Source of the DNA: Pseudomonas fluvialis
Lineage (GTDB): Bacteria; Pseudomonadota; Gammaproteobacteria; Pseudomonadales; Pseudomonadaceae
Assembly (NCBI RefSeq): GCF_002234375.1
Contig: NZ_NMQV01000005.1
Span: forward strand, 186,001-250,000
Length of the DNA stretch: 64,000 nucleotides
Direction: 5' to 3'
Of this stretch, positions 54,140 through 63,263 are shown one piece after another. The first letter of the stretch is position 1; each line of letters begins with the position of its first letter. The notes under the pieces were generated by a model. It was not told the DNA's origin, made no database searches, and was given only the letters and a program-made list of their open reading frames with translations. Position numbers and translations under genes: made by a program.

Positions 54140-54215
54140 AGGCCAGTAGCTCAATTGGCAGAGCGGCGGTCTCCAAAACCGCAGGTTGGGGGTTCGATTC
54201 CCTCCTGGCCTGCCA
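54140..54215 (+). tRNA. tRNA-Trp (CCA anticodon)
   Basis: A 76-nt cloverleaf including an encoded 3' CCA: acceptor AGGCCAG / CTGGCCT, D-arm around GCTCAATTGGCAGAGC, anticodon loop CTCCAAA with anticodon CCA, and T-arm with GGTTCGATTCC. Bases are closely similar to bacterial tRNA-Trp. It is located between glyA and mapZ, not next to secE/tuf where many gammaproteobacteria keep tRNA-Trp; whether it is the only copy cannot be told. Confidence 0.97.
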
Positions 54216-54760: not shown

Positions 54761-54779
54761 CACTGCTGCCCACCTGCAC

Positions 54780-54803
54780 AGCGCCGCCTCCGGGCGGCGC
54801 TTT
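54780..54803 (+). terminator. Terminator after mapZ
   Basis: An eight- or nine-base stem AGCGCCGCC / GGCGGCGCT with a short loop is followed by TTTGCT. It separates mapZ from the repeat-rich promoter of the next operon. Confidence 0.65.
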
Positions 54804-54824
54804 GCTGTGTGCCCGCCATCTTTA

Positions 54825-54921
54825 TGTACAACTTTTCCGACCTAACTGTACAAAAGCATTGACTTGTACAACAGCACACCTAAGATGAACACAAGCTGTA
54901 CAACAAATCAGATTTGTACAA
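54825..54921 (+). promoter_or_regulatory. Five TGTACAA direct repeats, probable LitR/MerR operator
   Basis: TGTACAA occurs at 54825-54831, 54847-54853, 54865-54871, 54897-54903 and 54915-54921, all on the plus strand, with start-to-start spacing 22, 18, 32 and 18. They span and flank the candidate promoter at 54859-54886. Light-responsive MerR-family regulators of the LitR/CarH class bind direct or inverted TGTACA-like repeats over promoters, and a LitR-type gene is in this operon. The last two copies lie downstream of the -10, as expected for a repressor. Confidence 0.75.
54859..54886 (+). promoter_or_regulatory. Sigma-70-like promoter of the photoprotection operon
   Basis: TTGACT (54859-54864), a 16-base spacer and TAAGAT (54881-54886) give a good consensus promoter about 54 bp before the rudS ATG. 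One TGTACAA follows the -35 immediately and two more lie after the -10, so a bound repressor would block polymerase. Leader length is about 47 bp. Confidence 0.7.
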
Positions 54922-54939
54922 CACATCCTAGGAGGCCCC

Positions 54940-55899
54940 ATGCATACGTCGATGCCCAAGCCCAAGCTCGCCATCAGCGCCTGCCTGCTCGGCGCCAACG
55001 TGCGCTTCAACGGCGGCCACAAGGAATCGCGCCTGTGCAGCCAGAGCCTGGCCGAACATTTCGAGTTTGTTCCGGTATGCCCGGAAGTCGGCATCGGTCT
55101 CGGCACCCCCCGCCAACCGATCCGCCTGGTCGGTGATGCGCAATCTCCGCGTGCCGTAGGGACCGTCCAGCGCGAGCTGGATGTCACTGATGCGCTGCGC
55201 GACTACGCCGAACGCATGGCCGGCGAACTCGACGATATCTGCGGGCATATCCTCATGCAGAGGTCGCCGTCCTGCGGCATGGAGCGGGTCAAGCTCTATC
55301 AGGACAATGGTTATCCGGCCGAGGGAGGGGCAGCCGGTATCTATGCAGCCCGTTTCATGGCGCTGCGCCCCGACCTGCCGGTAGAAGAAGACGGCCGCCT
55401 GAACGACCCGGTGCTGCGTGAGAACTTCATCACCCGTGTATACGCCTATGCCGAATGGCAACGCTTGTGCCGAGCCGGCCTGAGCCGACGTGGCGTGCTG
55501 CAATTTCACGCACGCTACAAGTACCAGCTGCTGGCCAATAATCCGCAGGCCTACAAAGAACTGGGCCGGCAACTGGCCAGCATTGCCCAGCATGACCTTG
55601 AGCAGTTTGCCGCCGACTATTTCAGCCGCCTGATACAGGCCTTGCGTCGTACCGCCAGCCGCGGCAGCCACAGCAATGTACTGCAGCACCTGTTCGGTTA
55701 CCTCAAGCATGCACTGAGTGCCGAGGAGAAGCGCGATACCGTGCAACTCATTGAGCAGTACCGGGAAGGCATCGTCCCGCTGGTGGTTCCGCTGACTCTG
55801 CTCAAGTACCACTTCCGTCGCCATCCGCATCCCTATGTGGCGCAGCAGGCTTATCTGCAGCCGCATCCGGAGCGCCTCAGCCTGCGCAACGCGCTCTAA
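54940..55899 (+). CDS. rudS: TudS-DUF1722 fusion, RudS-like tRNA 4-thiouridine desulfidase
   Basis: The 319-residue protein has an N-terminal DUF523/TudS domain (residues 1-145) with candidate 4Fe-4S cysteine ligands C15 (ISACLLG), C47 (VPVCPEVGIGLGTPR) and C112 (RSPSCGMERV), and a C-terminal DUF1722 domain (about 190-310) ending with an HPHPYVAQQAYLQPHPERLSLRN tail. This architecture matches RudS, reported in P. putida to convert s4U to uridine in tRNA. s4U is the near-UV-absorbing tRNA base, so removal fits a light operon. In E. coli a DUF1722 gene (ybgA) lies next to phrB. Start ATG has AGGAGG at good distance. Confidence 0.82.
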   Translation: MHTSMPKPKLAISACLLGANVRFNGGHKESRLCSQSLAEHFEFVPVCPEVGIGLGTPRQPIRLVGDAQSPRAVGTVQRELDVTDALRDYAERMAGELDDICGHILMQRSPSCGMERVKLYQDNGYPAEGGAAGIYAARFMALRPDLPVEEDGRLNDPVLRENFITRVYAYAEWQRLCRAGLSRRGVLQFHARYKYQLLANNPQAYKELGRQLASIAQHDLEQFAADYFSRLIQALRRTASRGSHSNVLQHLFGYLKHALSAEEKRDTVQLIEQYREGIVPLVVPLTLLKYHFRRHPHPYVAQQAYLQPHPERLSLRNAL

Positions 55900-55902
55900 A
55901 CC

Positions 55903-56832
55903 ATGCAGCCCGAAGATTACAGCAGCGCACTGGCTGCCGGCTGGTTGCCGATTCGTGACGTGGCCCGGCAGACCGGCGTCAATCCGGTCACCTTGCGCGC
56001 CTGGGAGCGACGCTATGGCCTGCTGCAACCACAGCGCACTGGCAAGGGCCACCGCCTGTATCCACCGGGCCAGGTGGAGCGCATCCGACAGATTCTCACC
56101 TGGCTGGGGCGCGGCGTCTCGGTCGGCCAGGTCAGCGAGTTGCTGCAACGCCAGGAACACCAGCCGCTGGCGCACAACCTCTGGCAGGAGCAGCGCCAGC
56201 AGCTTCTGCAAGCCATCGCCGAGCAAGCCGAGCGACGCCTGGATGACCTGTTCAACCAGGCGCTTACCCTCTATCCACCCGCTACCCTCTGCGCACAGCT
56301 GCTCCTGCCGTTACTCGACAGCCTGCAGCAACGCTGGCAAGGCCAGTTCGGCGCCGAGCTGGAGCGGGTGTTTTTTCACTCCTGGCTGCGCAGCAAACTC
56401 GGCGCGCGCCTCTATCACCAGAATCGCCAGCTGGGCGGTGCCCCGCTGCTGCTGGTCAACCTCTCGCAGCGTCCGCTTGAGCCTGGCCTCTGGCTGACCG
56501 CCTGGCTATGTGTCAGCGCGGCCTGCCCCAGCGAGGTATTCGACTGGCCGCTGCCGGCCAATGAACTGCTGCTGGCCATTGAACACATGCAGCCGCGAGC
56601 CCTGCTGCTGTATGCCAGCGACAGCCTGCCGAGCCCCCTCCTGCAACAACAACTGCCCCGTTTGCTGGCCAGCAGTCCGGTGCCGCTCTTGCTCGCCGGC
56701 CCAGCCAGCCAGATTCATGCAGCGAGCCTGCAGGACCTGCCAGGCCTGCACCTGGCTGCCGGCCCGCTGGCCGCCCTGCACAGCCTGCAACATCTGGAAC
56801 TGCTTGGCAGCGCACAAGGATCACCCGCATGA
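55903..56832 (+). CDS. litR: MerR-family light-response regulator, class II LitR-like
   Basis: The 309-residue protein has an N-terminal MerR HTH (PIRDVARQTGVNPVTLRAWERRYG with the RLYP wing) and a C-terminal region of CarH/LitR organisation (helical bundle about 85-165, Rossmann-like about 180-300). I do not see the EXXH and DXHXXG-type cobalamin-binding histidine motifs, consistent with class II LitR proteins of Pseudomonas, which respond to light with a separate LOV protein. It is directly after rudS (3 bp) and overlaps phrB by four bases. Probable target: the TGTACAA repeats upstream of rudS. Confidence 0.82.
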   Translation: MQPEDYSSALAAGWLPIRDVARQTGVNPVTLRAWERRYGLLQPQRTGKGHRLYPPGQVERIRQILTWLGRGVSVGQVSELLQRQEHQPLAHNLWQEQRQQLLQAIAEQAERRLDDLFNQALTLYPPATLCAQLLLPLLDSLQQRWQGQFGAELERVFFHSWLRSKLGARLYHQNRQLGGAPLLLVNLSQRPLEPGLWLTAWLCVSAACPSEVFDWPLPANELLLAIEHMQPRALLLYASDSLPSPLLQQQLPRLLASSPVPLLLAGPASQIHAASLQDLPGLHLAAGPLAALHSLQHLELLGSAQGSPA

Positions 56833-58259
56833 CTCAGCTCTACTGGTTGCGCAATGACCTGCGCAGTACCGATAACACGGCACTCAACGCAGCCATGGCC
56901 AATGGCCCGACCGTAGCCCTGTATGTGCTGAGCCCGGCCCAGTGGCAGGCGCACCACGACTCGCCGAACAAGGTCGATTTCTGGCTGCGTAACCTGCACG
57001 CACTGCGCGACGAGCTCAACGCCCTCGGCGTACCACTGCTGATTCGCCAGGTCGAGCACTGGCAGGACATTGGCGAGCTGCTCCTCACCCTCTGCCAGCA
57101 ACTGCAGGTACGTGCCGTGCAGGTGAACGCCGAATACGGCGTCAATGAAACCCGTCGCGATCAGTCGGTAGCCGCCTGCCTGGCCCGCGCGGGCGTCGCC
57201 TGGCATAGCCATCTCGACCAGTTGCTGTTCGCCCCTGGCAGTCTGCTGACCCAGTCTGGACAGTGCTTCCAGGTGTACAGCCAGTTTCGCAAGGCCTGCT
57301 ATCGACAACTCGCCCGTCACCTGCCAACGCCCCTGCCACGCCCGCGTGCGCAACCCGCGCTGCCCCTGGCCAGCGATCCGCTGCCCGAGCAGGTGAGTGG
57401 CTTTGCCCGCCCCACGGACAGTCTGCGCCAGCTCTGGCCGGCCGGCGAACAGCAAGCCCTGCAACGTCTGCAGCGCTTCGCCGAAGCGCGGCTGGAGGAC
57501 TACGACCGCCAGCGCGACCTGCCGGCCCTGCCCGGTACCAGCCAGCTGTCGCCCTATCTGGCGGCCGGCGTACTGTCGCCCCGCCAATGCCTGCACGCGG
57601 CGCTGCAGCACAACCAGGGCGAGTTCGAAAGCGGCAACCCCGGGGTGGTCTGCTGGATCAACGAACTGCTCTGGCGCGAGTTCTACAAACATATCCTCGT
57701 CGCCCATCCCCGCCTCTCCATGGGCCGTGCCTTTCGCCACGAGACCGAGGCACTGGCCTGGCGCGATGCCCCACACCAGCTGCTGGCCTGGCAGGAAGGA
57801 CGCACCGGTTTCCCGCTGATCGATGCGGCCATGCAGCAGTTGCGCGCCACCGGCTGGATGCACAATCGCCTGCGCATGGTCGTCGCCATGTTCCTCTGCA
57901 AGAACCTGCTGATCGACTGGCGACATGGCGAGCGCTTCTTCATGGAGCAGCTAATCGACGGCGACCTGGCCGCCAACAACGGCGGTTGGCAGTGGAGCGC
58001 CTCGACCGGCACCGATGCCGTGCCCTACTTCCGCCTGTTCAACCCGGTTACCCAGTCGCAGCGCTTCGACCCGGACGGGACCTTCATTCGCCACTGGCTG
58101 CCGGCCCTGGCCGGTCTGAACAAGCGCGACATCCATGACCCAGCGCGGCTCGGCGGTCTGTTCGGGATAGCCGACTACCCACGTCCGCTGGTCGACCTGG
58201 CGGCCAGCCGCAGCCGCGCACTGGCCGCCTTCAAGGCCCTGGAGCGCAGCCATGAGTGA
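56829..58259 (+). CDS. phrB: Class I CPD photolyase
   Basis: PhrB repairs cyclobutane pyrimidine dimers in DNA using blue light. The 476-residue product has the N-terminal antenna-binding domain (starts LYWLRNDLRSTDN) and C-terminal FAD domain with RTGFPLIDAAMQQLRATGWM, HNRLRMVVAMFLCKNLL and the NGGWQWSASTGTDAVPYFR signature. It overlaps litR by four bases and the next gene by eight. Confidence 0.96.
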   Translation: MTQLYWLRNDLRSTDNTALNAAMANGPTVALYVLSPAQWQAHHDSPNKVDFWLRNLHALRDELNALGVPLLIRQVEHWQDIGELLLTLCQQLQVRAVQVNAEYGVNETRRDQSVAACLARAGVAWHSHLDQLLFAPGSLLTQSGQCFQVYSQFRKACYRQLARHLPTPLPRPRAQPALPLASDPLPEQVSGFARPTDSLRQLWPAGEQQALQRLQRFAEARLEDYDRQRDLPALPGTSQLSPYLAAGVLSPRQCLHAALQHNQGEFESGNPGVVCWINELLWREFYKHILVAHPRLSMGRAFRHETEALAWRDAPHQLLAWQEGRTGFPLIDAAMQQLRATGWMHNRLRMVVAMFLCKNLLIDWRHGERFFMEQLIDGDLAANNGGWQWSASTGTDAVPYFRLFNPVTQSQRFDPDGTFIRHWLPALAGLNKRDIHDPARLGGLFGIADYPRPLVDLAASRSRALAAFKALERSHE

Positions 58260-58677
58260 ATTCCTGCGCCACTTCGCCCAGCGTTTCGCCAGTCTGGATG
58301 CCGCACACTTGCACCAGCTCGCGGAGCTGTACAGCGAGGACATCCTGTTCCGCGATCCGCTGCACGAGATACAGGGCCTGGCGGCCCTGCAGCGCTACTT
58401 TGCCGAGCTGTACAGCAACGTGCGCGAACTACGCTTCGATGTCTACGCCTTCGACACCCTGCGCGAAGGCGAAGGCTACCTGCGCTGGACCATGAGCTAC
58501 CGCCACCCGCGGCTGGCAGGTGGTGCGCTGATCCGCGTGGACGGTTGCTCGCACCTGTTGTGGCGAGATGGCCGGGTCTACCGCCATCGCGACTATTTCG
58601 ATGCCGGCGCCCTGCTGTATGAACACCTGCCACTACTCGGGCGGGTGATTGCCTGGTTGAAACGGAGGTTGGCATGA
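58252..58677 (+). CDS. NTF2/SnoaL-like protein in the light operon
   Basis: A 141-residue single-domain protein with NTF2/SnoaL-like features (FAQRFASLDAAHLHQLAELYSEDILFRDPLHEIQG; LIRVDGCSHLLWRDGRVYRHRDYFDAGALLYE). Members are either enzymes (isomerases, cyclases) or scaffolds; function here unknown. It starts eight bases before the phrB stop and overlaps the SDR gene by four. Confidence 0.82.
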   Translation: MSEFLRHFAQRFASLDAAHLHQLAELYSEDILFRDPLHEIQGLAALQRYFAELYSNVRELRFDVYAFDTLREGEGYLRWTMSYRHPRLAGGALIRVDGCSHLLWRDGRVYRHRDYFDAGALLYEHLPLLGRVIAWLKRRLA

Positions 58678-59450
58678 GCTGGACGGAACAACGGATCTGG
58701 CTGACCGGTGCCAGCAGTGGTATCGGTTTGGCACTGGCCGAACAGTTGCTCGAGCGGGGCGCACGCCTGGCCCTCAGCGCGCGACGTGAGGCGCCGCTGC
58801 AGGCCCTTGCCGAACGTTATCCCGGACAGGTGCTGGTCCTGCCGGGCGACCTCGGTCAGGAGAGCCAGGTACAGGCCATCGCCCAGGCCATCGATGCCCA
58901 CTGGGGCGCACTGGATATGCTGCTGTGCAATGCCGGCAGTTGCGAATATGTCGAAGCGGGCGCTTTCCAGGCAGCCAGTATCGAACGCATGCTGCGTAGC
59001 AACCTGCTGTCGGTGGCCTATGCCATCGAGGCGGGCCTGCCGCTGCTGCGCCGCGGCCGACAGGCGCAACTGGTCGCGGTGGGCAGTTCGGTCACCTACC
59101 TGCCGCTGCCCCGCGCAGAAGCCTACGGCTGCTCCAAGGCCGGCCTGCGCTACCTGCTGCAAAGCCTACGCATTGCCCTGGCCAGTGAGGACATCGCAGT
59201 CACGCTGATCAGCCCCGGCTTTGTCGACACCCCGCTGACCCAGCGTAACGATTTCCCCATGCCGATGCGCTGGACAGCCGAGCGTGCCGCCAGCGAGATC
59301 ATCACGCGCCTGCCGGCGCGCCCGCTGGAAATCCGTTTCCCCGGCCCCTTCATCAGCCTGCTGCGCCTGCTGGGCAGCCTGCCGCAACGTTGGCAGCTGG
59401 CCATTGGCCGCCGCCTGGCGCGCCCCGTTCACAAGGAATCACGACCATGA
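58674..59450 (+). CDS. Short-chain dehydrogenase/reductase
   Basis: A 258-residue SDR with the cofactor motif TGASSGIG (residues 11-18), the NAG motif LLCNAGS, catalytic Ser in VAVGSSVTYLP and YxxxK in AYGCSKAG. The substrate is unknown; company with a Cfa-like gene and a FAD enzyme suggests lipid or alcohol/ketone chemistry. It overlaps its neighbours by four bases on each side. Confidence 0.92.
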   Translation: MSWTEQRIWLTGASSGIGLALAEQLLERGARLALSARREAPLQALAERYPGQVLVLPGDLGQESQVQAIAQAIDAHWGALDMLLCNAGSCEYVEAGAFQAASIERMLRSNLLSVAYAIEAGLPLLRRGRQAQLVAVGSSVTYLPLPRAEAYGCSKAGLRYLLQSLRIALASEDIAVTLISPGFVDTPLTQRNDFPMPMRWTAERAASEIITRLPARPLEIRFPGPFISLLRLLGSLPQRWQLAIGRRLARPVHKESRP

Positions 59451-60694
59451 AGATCGCCATCATCGGCAGCGGCATTGCCGGCCTGACCTGCGCCTACCTG
59501 CTCAATCGCCGCCATGCCATCACCCTCTTCGAAGCCGAGTCCTGGGTAGGCGGGCATACGCATACCGTACCGGTCAGCCTGGATGGCCAGCACTACGCCA
59601 TCGACACCGGCTTTATCGTCTTCAATGACTGGACCTATCCAAACTTCATCCACCTGCTGCGCCAGCTTGGCGTGCGCTACCAGCCCACCGAGATGAGCTT
59701 TTCCGTACACGACCCACGTAGCGGCGTGGAGTACAACGGCAATAACCTCAACAGCCTGTTCGCCCAGCGCAGCAACCTCCTGTCACCGCGCTTCTGGGGC
59801 ATGCTGCAGGATATCTTGCGCTTCAACCGCGAAGCGCTGCGTGACCTGGAGGAAGGGCGCATCGCCGCCGACCTGACCCTGGGCCAATACCTGCAGCAGA
59901 ATGGCTATGGGCAGCGTTTCATCGACCACTACATCGTGCCGATGGGCGCAGCGATCTGGTCGATGTCGCTGGAAGGCATGCTCGGCTTCCCCCTGCAATT
60001 CTTCGTGCGGTTCTTCCGCAACCACGGGCTGCTCTCGGTGAGTGATCGCCCTCAGTGGTATGTCATCGAGGGCGGCTCCAGTGCCTACGTGGAACCGCTG
60101 ACCCGCGACTTCCTGCAGCACATCCGCAGCAACTGCCCGGTACAGCGCATCGAACGCGATGCCAGCGGCGTCACCGTACACAGCGCAGCGGGTAGCGAAC
60201 GCTTCGACAAGGTAGTACTGGCCTGTCACAGCGATCAGGCGCTGGCCCTGCTGGCAAAACCCAGCGAAGCCGAACAACAGATTCTCGGAGCCCTGCCCTA
60301 CGCCGAGAACGATGTGGTGTTGCACACCGACACCCGCCTGCTGCCGCGCCGCCCGCTGGCCTGGGCCAGCTGGAACTACCGGCTGGGCGGACCACGCCAG
60401 CAGCCGGCGGCGGTCACCTACAACATGAACATCCTGCAGGGCATCAAGGCCCCGCAGACCTTCTGCGTCAGCCTCAACCAGAGCGAGGCGATCGCACCCG
60501 ACAAGGTGCTGGCGCGCTTTCGCTATGCCCATCCACAGTACAGCCTGGCCGGCATGGCCGCCCAGGCACGCTGGGAAGAAATCCATGGTGTGCAGCACAG
60601 CTACTATTGCGGCGCCTACTGGGCCAACGGTTTCCACGAGGACGGCGTGGTCAGCGCGCTGCGCGTGGCCAGCGCCTTCGGGGAGCAACTGTGA
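59447..60694 (+). CDS. FAD-dependent oxidoreductase (amine-oxidase family)
   Basis: The 415-residue protein has the dinucleotide-binding motif IIGSGIAGLTCAYLL at residue 4 and GGHTHTVPVSLDGQHYAIDTGFIVFND, which place it in the flavin amine-oxidase/phytoene-desaturase-like superfamily. The ATG at 59447 overlaps the SDR stop by four bases. It is cotranscribed with DUF1365 and a Cfa-like gene, the combination seen in several light- or singlet-oxygen-responsive bacterial loci; a role in fatty-acid oxidation or desaturation is inference. Confidence 0.88.
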   Translation: MKIAIIGSGIAGLTCAYLLNRRHAITLFEAESWVGGHTHTVPVSLDGQHYAIDTGFIVFNDWTYPNFIHLLRQLGVRYQPTEMSFSVHDPRSGVEYNGNNLNSLFAQRSNLLSPRFWGMLQDILRFNREALRDLEEGRIAADLTLGQYLQQNGYGQRFIDHYIVPMGAAIWSMSLEGMLGFPLQFFVRFFRNHGLLSVSDRPQWYVIEGGSSAYVEPLTRDFLQHIRSNCPVQRIERDASGVTVHSAAGSERFDKVVLACHSDQALALLAKPSEAEQQILGALPYAENDVVLHTDTRLLPRRPLAWASWNYRLGGPRQQPAAVTYNMNILQGIKAPQTFCVSLNQSEAIAPDKVLARFRYAHPQYSLAGMAAQARWEEIHGVQHSYYCGAYWANGFHEDGVVSALRVASAFGEQL

Positions 60695-61503
60695 GCGCGC
60701 TACAGCACAGCGCGCTGTACCTCGGCCAGGTTGGGCACCGGCGTTTTGCTCCGCGTGCGCACGCCTTCAACTATGCCATCGGCCTGTTCTACCTCGACCT
60801 CGACGAACTGCCGCAGCTCCTGCAACTCAGTCGCTGCCTGGGCTCGCAGCGCTGGCGGCCACTGGCGTTCCGCGAGCAGGACTACCTGCCGGGCCTGACC
60901 GGCAGCGGCCTGTCACTGCGTGAAGCGGTGCGCCAGCGTCTGCACGAGGCGCTCGGCCGCGATATCGACGGCCCGGTCCGTCTGCTCACCCAGCTGCGCT
61001 GCTGGGGACTGAGTTTCAACCCGGCCAGTTTTTTCTACTGTTTCGATCGCCAGGAACAGTTGCAGGCGATCCTCGTCGAGGTCAGCAATACCCCCTGGCG
61101 CGAACGCTATCACTACGTGCTACCCGCCCAGGGCGACGGCCCGCAGTTCTTCGCGGTGGCGAAGTGTTTCCATGTCTCGCCCTACCTGCCCCGCGAGGTG
61201 GATTACCACATGCACTTCAGCCCACCGGGCCAGCGCCTGGGCATTCACATGGCCGACTGGCAGGGCCCGCTCAAGCTGTTCGATGCCAGCCTCAGCCTGC
61301 GCCGCGAGCCACTGGACCAGCGCAGCCTGCATCGCTACCTGCGGCATTTTCCGTGGATGACCGGCAAGGCCGTGCTAGGCATCTACTGGCAGGCCTTGCG
61401 CCTGCTGCTCAAACGTACCCCCATCCATGACCATCAGGCGGCCCTGGGCCAGTTCCAGGTCGCTCAGTTTCGTCACAAGGAGTCAGCCGATGAAAACCTC
61501 TAG
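60691..61503 (+). CDS. DUF1365 family protein
   Basis: A 270-residue protein that starts at GTG within a GTGA overlap with the previous stop. It contains family blocks RRFAPRAHAFNYAIGLFYLDLDEL and LTQLRCWGLSFNPASFFYCFD, and HVSPYLPREVDYHMHF. DUF1365 is commonly linked to FAD oxidoreductase and Cfa-like genes; activity unknown. It overlaps the Cfa-like gene by 14 bases. Confidence 0.88.
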   Translation: MSALQHSALYLGQVGHRRFAPRAHAFNYAIGLFYLDLDELPQLLQLSRCLGSQRWRPLAFREQDYLPGLTGSGLSLREAVRQRLHEALGRDIDGPVRLLTQLRCWGLSFNPASFFYCFDRQEQLQAILVEVSNTPWRERYHYVLPAQGDGPQFFAVAKCFHVSPYLPREVDYHMHFSPPGQRLGIHMADWQGPLKLFDASLSLRREPLDQRSLHRYLRHFPWMTGKAVLGIYWQALRLLLKRTPIHDHQAALGQFQVAQFRHKESADENL

Positions 61504-62761
61504 CCTCACCGGCAAAGCGCGCCTGTTCAGCCACACCGGCCTGGCCAATGGCCTGCTGCGCAGCGCGGTATTGCGCCAGCTTGGCCAACTGCGCCATGGC
61601 CAGCTGCGCGTCATCGAACAGGGCGAAAGCATGGAGTTCGGCCCGGGTGGGCACGGTCCGCATGCCGAGATCGAAATTATCGACAGCGCTGCCTGGGGCC
61701 TGATCGCCGGCAACGGCTCGATCGGTGCCGGCGAGGCCTATATCCATGGTTACTGGTGCAGCCCCGACCTGACCGCCGTGGTGCGCCTGTTCGTCGCCAA
61801 TCTCGACGTACTCGACGCCATGGAGCGTGGCCTGGCCAGCCTCGGCCGACCGCTGGTCAAGGCCCTGCACTGGCTCAACCGCAATACCCGCAGCGGCGCG
61901 CGCCGCAATATTGCCGCGCACTATGACCTGGGTAATGCCCTGTTCGAGCAGTTCCTTGATCCGACCATGATGTATTCGGCGGCGATGTTCCCGCCCGGTT
62001 GCGACGACCTGGAGCAGGCGCAACTACACAAGCTGGAGCGCATCTGCCAGAAGCTCGACCTCAAGCCCAGCGATCACTTGCTGGAAATCGGCACCGGCTG
62101 GGGCAGCATGGCCATCTATGCCGCCAGCCACTACGGCTGCCGGGTGACCACCACCACCCTGTCGCGCGAGCAGTTTGCCTACACCCAGGCGCGCATCGAG
62201 GCTCAGGGCCTGCAGGATCGTATCACCCTGCTGTTAGAGGACTACCGCGACCTGCGTGGCGAATACGACAAGCTGGTGTCGATCGAGATGATCGAAGCGG
62301 TGGGTCATCGTTTCCTGCCCACCTATTTCCGCCAGTGCGCAAGCCTGCTCAAACCCGACGGGTTGATGCTGCTGCAGGCCATCACCATCCGCGAGCAGCG
62401 CTATGAAATGGCCCGCCGCTCGGTGGACTTCATCCAGCGTTACATCTTCCCCGGCGGCGCCCTGCCCTCGGTACACAAGATGCTGGAAATCGTTGGCCGC
62501 GACACGGACCTCAACCTGCACCACCTGGAAGATTTCGGCCTGCATTACGCCCGCACCCTGCGCCACTGGCACGAACGCCTGCGCCAGGCGCGCGGCAAAC
62601 TGGCCGAACTGGGCTACGACGAGTACTTCTTCCGTCTCTGGGAGTTTTACCTGTGCTATTGCGAAGGCGGCTTCCTCGAGCGCAGCATCGGCACCGCGCA
62701 CCTGCTGCTGGCCAAGCCGCAGGCCCGGCCATTGCCGCTCCTGGGAAAGTTCGATGAATAA
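61490..62761 (+). CDS. Cfa-like SAM-dependent fatty-acyl methyltransferase
   Basis: The 423-residue protein belongs to the cyclopropane-fatty-acid synthase family: SAM site LLEIGTGWGSMAIYAA (near residue 198), IAAHYDLGNALFEQFLD, EDYRDLRGEYDKLVSIEMIEAVGH and RYIFPGGALPSV. By eye against E. coli Cfa, C139 is Ala (MYSAAMF), H266 is Gln (LLQAI), while E239 (MIEAV), I268 and Y317 (HYARTL) are kept. C139 and H266 bind bicarbonate in Cfa, so the product may not be a cyclopropane ring. It has AAGGAG before the ATG and overlaps both neighbours. Confidence 0.88.
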   Translation: MKTSSLTGKARLFSHTGLANGLLRSAVLRQLGQLRHGQLRVIEQGESMEFGPGGHGPHAEIEIIDSAAWGLIAGNGSIGAGEAYIHGYWCSPDLTAVVRLFVANLDVLDAMERGLASLGRPLVKALHWLNRNTRSGARRNIAAHYDLGNALFEQFLDPTMMYSAAMFPPGCDDLEQAQLHKLERICQKLDLKPSDHLLEIGTGWGSMAIYAASHYGCRVTTTTLSREQFAYTQARIEAQGLQDRITLLLEDYRDLRGEYDKLVSIEMIEAVGHRFLPTYFRQCASLLKPDGLMLLQAITIREQRYEMARRSVDFIQRYIFPGGALPSVHKMLEIVGRDTDLNLHHLEDFGLHYARTLRHWHERLRQARGKLAELGYDEYFFRLWEFYLCYCEGGFLERSIGTAHLLLAKPQARPLPLLGKFDE

Positions 62762-63263
62762 ACTGCTGCTCAACGCCCTGCTGTTTCAGCTCGGCTGGTT
62801 CCTCTGCGTATTCGCCGCCCAGCAGCCCTGGTTGCTGCTCGGCGTGCCGTTGCTGCTGGCCATCCACCTGCGCTGGGTGGCCGGCTGGCACGCCGAAGGC
62901 CGTCTACTGGTCAGCGTGCTGCTGAGCGGCGCGGCACTGGACAGTACCTTGCTGCAAATGGGCGTGCTCGACTTTGCTGGCGACAGCCTGCTGCTGCCAC
63001 TCTGGCTGGCCACCCTGTGGCTGCTGTTCGGCACCACGCTCAATCATTGCCTGGCCTGGAGCGCACGGCCCTGGTGGCGTGCCAGCCTGCTCGGCGCATG
63101 TGGCGGGCCGTTGTCCTACTACGCTGGCGCGCAACTGGCCGGTGTCGGGATGCCGCTGGGCCTGTGGCCCAGCTTGCTGATCCTCGCCGGCTGCTGGGCC
63201 GTCTTGCTACCGCTGCTGCATGGTTTCGCCAGCCTGCAACGGCAACGTCTGGCCAGTCAGTGA
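62754..63263 (+). CDS. DUF2878 membrane protein
   Basis: A 169-residue protein with about five hydrophobic segments; starts MNKLLLNALLFQLGWFLCVFA and has RPWWRASLLGACGGPLSYYAG, typical of DUF2878. It often accompanies Cfa-like and DUF1365 genes. Its start overlaps the Cfa-like stop by eight bases. It ends the operon, 15 bp from the convergent tatE stop. Confidence 0.85.
   Translation: MNKLLLNALLFQLGWFLCVFAAQQPWLLLGVPLLLAIHLRWVAGWHAEGRLLVSVLLSGAALDSTLLQMGVLDFAGDSLLLPLWLATLWLLFGTTLNHCLAWSARPWWRASLLGACGGPLSYYAGAQLAGVGMPLGLWPSLLILAGCWAVLLPLLHGFASLQRQRLASQ

Follow-up and report, generated by a model that had tools for sequence, protein, structure and literature searches.

The window, i.e. the complete 64-kb stretch of DNA that was analysed, contains a run of nine genes on the forward strand, for which the Pfam matches gave the following order: rudS (54940..55899), encoding a 2-thiouracil desulfurase (TudS) domain fused to DUF1722, as in the tRNA 4-thiouridine desulfidase family (family function according to PMC11417400); litR1 (55903..56832), which takes the position of PplR1/PmlR1 and encodes a MerR-type HTH (MerR_1) followed by a four-helix B12-binding_2 domain; phr (56829..58259), encoding a DNA photolyase; and the genes for a SnoaL-like protein (58252..58677), a short-chain dehydrogenase (58674..59450), a FAD-dependent amine oxidoreductase-like protein (59447..60694), a DUF1365 protein (60637..61503), a CMAS-family methyltransferase (61490..62761) that is likely the counterpart of P. 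mendocina ufaM, and a DUF2878 protein (62751..63263), the final gene of the run. The nine genes presumably form a single transcript. RudS strips 4-thiouridine from tRNA and, as is the case here, rudS is reported to share an operon with the genes for LitR and PhrB (PMC11417400); RudS_KT is PP_0741 of P. putida, and the same source brings forward the idea that light-driven RudS helps against the effects of near-UV on tRNA (PMC11417400). The rudS promoter is preceded by a PilZ gene and a tRNA-Trp gene. The latter, tRNA-Trp(cca), is located at 54140-54215, between glyA and the PilZ gene and about 0.6 kb 5' of the promoter, and the operon downstream of it opens with a gene from a tRNA-editing family (rudS). 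A GC-rich hairpin 3' of the PilZ gene (AGCGCCGCC-TCCG-GGCGGCGCT, 54780-54801) is possibly a terminator that insulates what we argue below to be a light promoter.

The first-pass annotation had pointed to five same-strand copies of TGTACAA within the 97 bp of 54825-54921, and these were recovered, on the forward strand, with starts at 54825, 54847, 54865, 54897 and 54915 and successive spacings of 22, 18, 32 and 18 bp, which is the 18-bp spacing twice plus 22 and 32 that had been listed. The promoter that the repeats frame was also found as described (TTGACT-N16-TAAGAT, 54859-54886): the -35 hexamer occupies 54859..54864 and the -10 hexamer 54881..54886, with a spacer of 16 bp. The rarity presumed for such a 7-mer was borne out as well. 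There were ten matches to TGTACAA on both strands of the window, whereas 100 dinucleotide-preserving shuffles of the window averaged 1.55 (sd 1.37) and had no more than 5, so that ten was never reached. Seven of the ten matches fall in the promoter stretch, five on the forward strand and, TTGTACAA being a palindrome, two on the reverse strand. A mononucleotide estimate based on the composition of 54761-54939, motifs counted in, gave an expectation of ~0.005 copies per 97 bp and a chance of ~3e-14 for five or more.

Four of the five copies pair up as two TGTACA-N12-TGTACA units: operator site 1 (54847..54870), which has the -35 hexamer between its halves, and operator site 2 (54897..54920), which lies in the leader, downstream of the likely transcription start and upstream of the ATG. 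Both sites are conserved in relatives. The transcription start would lie near 54893, a position that rests on P6650 (48 bp before the ATG). The remaining copy is a solitary half-site (54825..54831, forward strand) that lies 22 bp upstream of site 1 and has no partner at 18 bp. This organization is very similar to that of promoter P6650 of Pseudomonas mendocina NBRC 14162, where a TTGACT-N16-TATGAT promoter has Site 1 over the -35 and Site 2 downstream of the start and ahead of the ATG, each with the sequence TGTACA-N12-TGTACA (PMC9758184). The sites occupy the same positions and the -35 hexamers are identical, whereas the -10 hexamers differ (TAAGAT versus TATGAT) and a fifth half-site is without mention in the available part of the text on P6650. 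Both pairs are exact instances of the consensus of P. putida KT2440 PplR1, T(G/A)TACA-N12-TGTA(C/T)A (Sumi et al. 2020, as quoted in PMC9758184). The operator thus defined, with one site over the -35 of a sigma-70-type promoter and one between its (itself inferred) start and the ATG, heads a litR1-phr-...-ufaM operon; the P. mendocina operon PME6650-PME6610 likewise comprises nine genes, with named functions that match, and its phrB and ufaM are induced 25- to 33-fold in the light (PMC9758184).

The conservation of the dual site was inspected upstream of rudS in the genus (59 genomes, 58 with a match) and in the family (148 genomes, 133 with a match). The resulting 159 upstream regions (59 loci from both searches and 100 retrieved by coordinates, oriented by tblastn) leave out two genus genomes, whose matches were partial, and, in the family, 28 of the 133 with a match (eight of them partial). 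At least one exact TGTACA was present within 200 bp upstream in 150/159 loci and none in 9/159, compared to 0/159 for a 210-bp coding control, so that the repeats are indeed conserved upstream of orthologous operons. The distances between TGTACA pairs peak at 18 bp (152 pairs), 50 bp (79, or 134 when 49 and 51 are included) and 32 bp (55), and the spacing between the two units is usually 50±1 bp over the 159 promoters. The four half-sites are mismatch-free in 55/159 promoters and both dyads have at most four mismatches in 24 positions in 120/159; seven or more mismatches were counted in 22/159, the same range as in 60 mononucleotide-shuffled controls (seven or more). The architecture script limited the inter-unit distance to 47-53 bp, and two loci with four exact half-sites (G028 and G159) were therefore scored as misses, their 18-28-18 arrangement adding up to 46 bp. 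A -35/-10 pair at offset 12 with a 16-bp spacer was found in 75 of the 120 dual-site loci. Site 2 lies at a variable distance from the gene (sd about 12 bp, taken from the aligned first residue), versus an sd of 1.0 for the inter-site distance within the bounds set by the script (47-53 bp). Among the named loci from the genome collection the dual site was scored in 25/32, the other seven remaining below the threshold in the stretch examined. The core is a short palindrome, which might raise the suspicion of coincidence or of a simple-sequence artefact, but the shuffle statistics, together with the concentration of TGTACA at fixed-spacing peaks upstream of rudS and its absence from the coding controls, leave such an explanation with a practically negligible probability.

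The palindromic core also implies that a direct and an inverted reading are both possible in one and the same sequence. The first-pass annotation had chosen the former, in which LitR would bind as a CarH-like tandem array in an 18-bp instead of an 11-bp register. This choice is backed by the five 7-mers being identical on one strand, by the operators of the CarH family, which are tandem 11-bp direct repeats of nnnnTnnACAn (PMC9304148, PMC8156234), and by the history of the CarA inverted repeats, which were once proposed and later re-read as direct (PMC9304148). We compared the two halves within 238 pairs at 18-bp spacing, where neither half was allowed more than one mismatch; removal of near-copies at 75% identity left 128 pairs. 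In these 128 pairs the left half changes at position 2 (G>A, 22) and position 6 (A>G, 4) and the right half at position 5 (C>T, 17) and position 1 (T>C, 9), whereas the crossed cases amount to one (left position 5 to T) and zero (right position 2 to A); a single class, right position 3 T>C (5), does not mirror, as it has no left counterpart. With core and flanks included, the inverted mapping had a summed column divergence of 0.358 and the direct mapping one of 1.134. Their difference had a bootstrap interval of 0.55-1.02, with 0/500 replicates at or below 0, although the bootstrap overstates the certainty because related sequences are not independent. The mirror pattern is displayed by both sites separately, including site 2, which is free of internal promoter elements, and some single columns of site 1 fit the direct mapping equally well or better. 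Of the left halves, 67% have the A three bases upstream of the T, and 54% of the right halves are followed by its mirror T. A forward A before the right half is found in 51% overall (93% in site 1, 33% in site 2), a figure that follows from the TTGACT in site 1; this A of the hexamer, three bases ahead of the right half, is one of the site 1 columns that fit the direct mapping equally well or better. The published class II consensus is self-complementary.

Since the halves vary as mirror images (TRTACA-N12-TGTAYA) over the 159 rudS promoters, we consider the unit an inverted repeat and a tandem array of direct repeats unlikely, and a CarH-like direct-repeat assembly was set aside. Each unit resembles a face-to-face arrangement of two CarH-type half-sites. 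The half-site itself is shared with the operators of Class I CarH proteins (Thermus, Bacillus, Myxococcales), which have TnnACA preceded, three bases upstream of the T, by an A (nAnnTnnACAn; PMC8156234), and so are the overlap with the -35 and the dark repression that is a feature of CarH (PMC9304148, PMC8156234). The arrangement is not that of a Class I operator: the facing half-sites are in an 18-bp register and those of CarH are tandem direct repeats at 11 bp. The first-pass annotation was thus right about the protein family and wrong about the geometry. Its suggestion that assembly differs from that of CarH probably holds; the 18 bp that prompted it is not odd, being that of the published class II LitR site (PMC9758184). 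A literature search outside Sumi et al. 2020 retrieved no printed description of the site as inverted, which could still be published, and the terms 'inverted', 'palindrom' and 'direct repeat' have a count of zero in the available text of PMC9758184.

Extra exact half-sites such as the one at 54825 are rare (17 in 120 loci). Five of them sit 22 or 23 bp outside a unit: the one in this promoter, those in L062 and L064 (-22/-23) and those in L117 and L120 (+23). As L062 and L064 share one genus and L117 and L120 another, these represent perhaps three independent cases. The half-site at 54825 is a possible auxiliary contact.

We then searched this genome (3.29 Mb, 69 contigs) for the proteins that make up the circuit. 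The open reading frame at 55903-56832 is a genuine LitR-like gene, with MerR_1 and B12-binding_2 matches, and in the absence of a PF02310 match its product has the composition of a class II LitR protein. Its nearest solved relatives by sequence are 3whp and CarH (5c8d), with E about 4e-15. Class I CarH/LitR photosensors combine a B12-binding domain with the capping motif Wx9EH (CarH: PMC8156234), a combination not present in LitR1: in the alignment to CarH the W and E match and the position of the H is an R (read by eye). The site is in keeping with a CarH/LitR-family regulator, as expected in the first-pass annotation. LitR1 itself is probably not the photosensor, a role that falls to a short LOV protein in P. 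mendocina (PMC9758184). CarH senses light by B12, in contrast to the class II system considered here; for class II regulators the sources diverge, adenosyl-B12 dependence being given in PMC11417400 and B12 being described as not required in PMC9758184.

A second LitR (LitR2; G000:C45:105250-106095) has 40% identity to LitR1, and a third, weaker match covers the HTH part. The ~6 kb around LitR2 contain a gene encoding a short LOV protein, a DCC1-like gene and folM, folE and folX (fol genes named by family and gene order), and LitR2, the short LOV and the fol genes are likewise found together at a separate locus in P. mendocina (PMC9758184). The short LOV protein is of the PmSB-LOV type: it has 148 aa, a LOV core with cysteine at the adduct position (Cys53) and PAS-family matches alone, no output domain being present, and its residues 1-147 match best to solved chains titled 'Sensory box protein'.

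A genome scan yielded candidate sites at folM and cryB and no large TGTACA regulon. Exact TGTACA-N12-TGTAYA occurs in two places, both in the rudS promoter. Allowing up to one mismatch to TRTACA-N12-TGTAYA gave nine places, compared to two for a reversed control pattern: two in the rudS promoter, two before folM, one before a small gene and cryB, and four others. Three of these four lie inside ORFs of at least 120 codons (L015, L016, L221) and at the last one (L021) the script found no ORF of at least 120 codons; all four were taken for chance. The two-mismatch set of TGTACA-N12-TGTACA (at least 109 places versus 46 for the control) was too large for use. The candidate sites at folM and cryB carry one mismatch each, and one of those at folM reads TGTACA-N12-GGTATA, as it does before folM in P. 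mendocina; the folM and cryB units are the remaining two light-induced units named for that species (PMC9758184). Upstream of cryB (L223:2949-2985) TATACA is succeeded by TGTGCA in a step of 11 bp and by TGTATA in a further step of 18 bp, the outer two elements forming a 10-bp perfect inverted repeat (CTATACATAA/TTATGTATAG).

The distribution of the parts was tabulated for 105 family genomes with a rudS promoter, in which close short LOV and LitR1 were called by author-set E-value cuts; the LOV calls concern partly draft genomes, and many genomes counted as LOV-less have more distant LOV domains. LitR1 and LOV occur together in 58/105 genomes, 53 of which have the dual site and all 58 of which have at least two LitR matches. 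The other genomes have LOV without LitR1 (17, dual site in six), LitR1 without a close LOV (24, of which 11 score for the dual site, L129 being doubtful) or neither (six, dual site in one, L171). The second LitR and the short LOV thus co-occur across genomes, which agrees with LitR2 as the partner of LOV.

These data also bear on the possibility that another TGTACA-liking regulator owns the promoter and that LitR is merely adjacent. The 17 genomes with a short LOV and no LitR1 by the cut, including the six that score both dyads, would fit such a regulator, but none of the 17 is without a LitR match at E 1e-15 or better. Where LitR1 and LOV are both lacking, only L171 passes the threshold, one of its half-sites carrying three mismatches, and the genomes of L171 and L170 still show a weak LitR match. 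Given that binding of PmlR2 to the motif has been shown directly (PMC9758184), we regard another owner as very improbable and keep to control by LitR.

LitR1 and the operator persist in genomes that lack both LOV and the second LitR: each of the 24 genomes with LitR1 and no close LOV has one LitR match, and all four half-sites are perfect in six of them. The remaining 13 of the 24 all have one or more pairs at 18 or 19 bp whose halves deviate at no more than one position each, and two of these genomes (L109 and L163) have four exact half-sites at 18-28-18. Upstream of rudS in the LOV-less L122, L123, L129 and L140 there is a single exact 19-bp pair and not two at 18 bp. Around LitR1 in LOV-less genomes (L224-L240, n = 17), 14 loci have rudS, litR and phr without the other operon genes, two (L233, L234) have the whole operon and one (L232) has litR1 alone. 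Two of three LOV-positive loci carry the whole operon and the third (L241) has rudS, litR, phr and no more, which rules out loss of the distal genes as a mark of LOV-less genomes.

The promoter is very probably the blue-light operator of a conserved rudS-litR-phr-...-ufaM-type operon, under control of class II LitR. In P. mendocina the class II LitR PmlR2 gives one broad DNase I footprint over both P6650 sites, its binding is lost once both halves of Site 2 are changed, and it represses transcription in vitro; blue-lit PmSB-LOV binds the N-terminal HTH domain of PmlR2 and relieves the repression (PMC9758184). By analogy, in the dark the class II LitR repressors (LitR1 from the operon and LitR2 from elsewhere) would bind both mirror-image sites, where occupancy of site 1 would cover the -35 and that of site 2 the first transcribed bases, blocking access of RNA polymerase. 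Upon blue-light illumination the short LOV protein would form its flavin adduct, bind the HTH domain of LitR and disable it, upon which the photolyase, RudS (the tRNA 4-thiouridine desulfidase) and the products of the lipid genes would be made; LitR1 made from the operon may then reset the system. One LitR dimer per dyad seems plausible: the N-terminal domain of PmlR2 behaves as a species of 22 kDa, likely a dimer, which fits a dyad site, and the C-terminal part of PmlR2 forms large oligomers above 440 kDa, so that more than two subunits may assemble (PMC9758184). The LOV-LitR complex remained on the DNA in gel shift, whereas binding was inhibited in surface plasmon resonance (PMC9758184), and the last release step is thus tentative even in P. 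mendocina.

Several observations count against the light-operator reading: the promoters with seven or more mismatches, those without any TGTACA and the seven named loci that were missed; the half-site at 54825, for which the reading does not account; and the fact that the footprinted protein is PmlR2 and not the counterpart of LitR1. The anatomy of the promoter, its conservation, its mirror symmetry and the co-occurrence of every protein part in a single genome are established by computation, and footprint, repression and LOV anti-repression are established in P. mendocina (PMC9758184), as which this strain would be expected to behave.

The operator type was already known from related Pseudomonas and it is well supported that this promoter is a further instance, which places the tRNA desulfidase, photolyase and lipid-modifying genes of the strain under a known blue-light switch. 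What is gained is a testable geometry (two facing CarH-type half-sites per unit, with a distance of about 50 bp from unit to unit) in a class of repressors that by sequence has CarH as its closest solved relative. The LOV-less genomes with intact operators in turn pose the question of how LitR1 is released when the known type of partner is missing. Since 11 of these 24 single-LitR genomes, one of them doubtful, score for both operator units, the known release mechanism may not apply there, and we tentatively put forward, as a possibility that we rate somewhat below even, a second wiring of the circuit, in which LitR1 of LOV-less Pseudomonadaceae would be switched by another sensor or signal, or would itself sense something.
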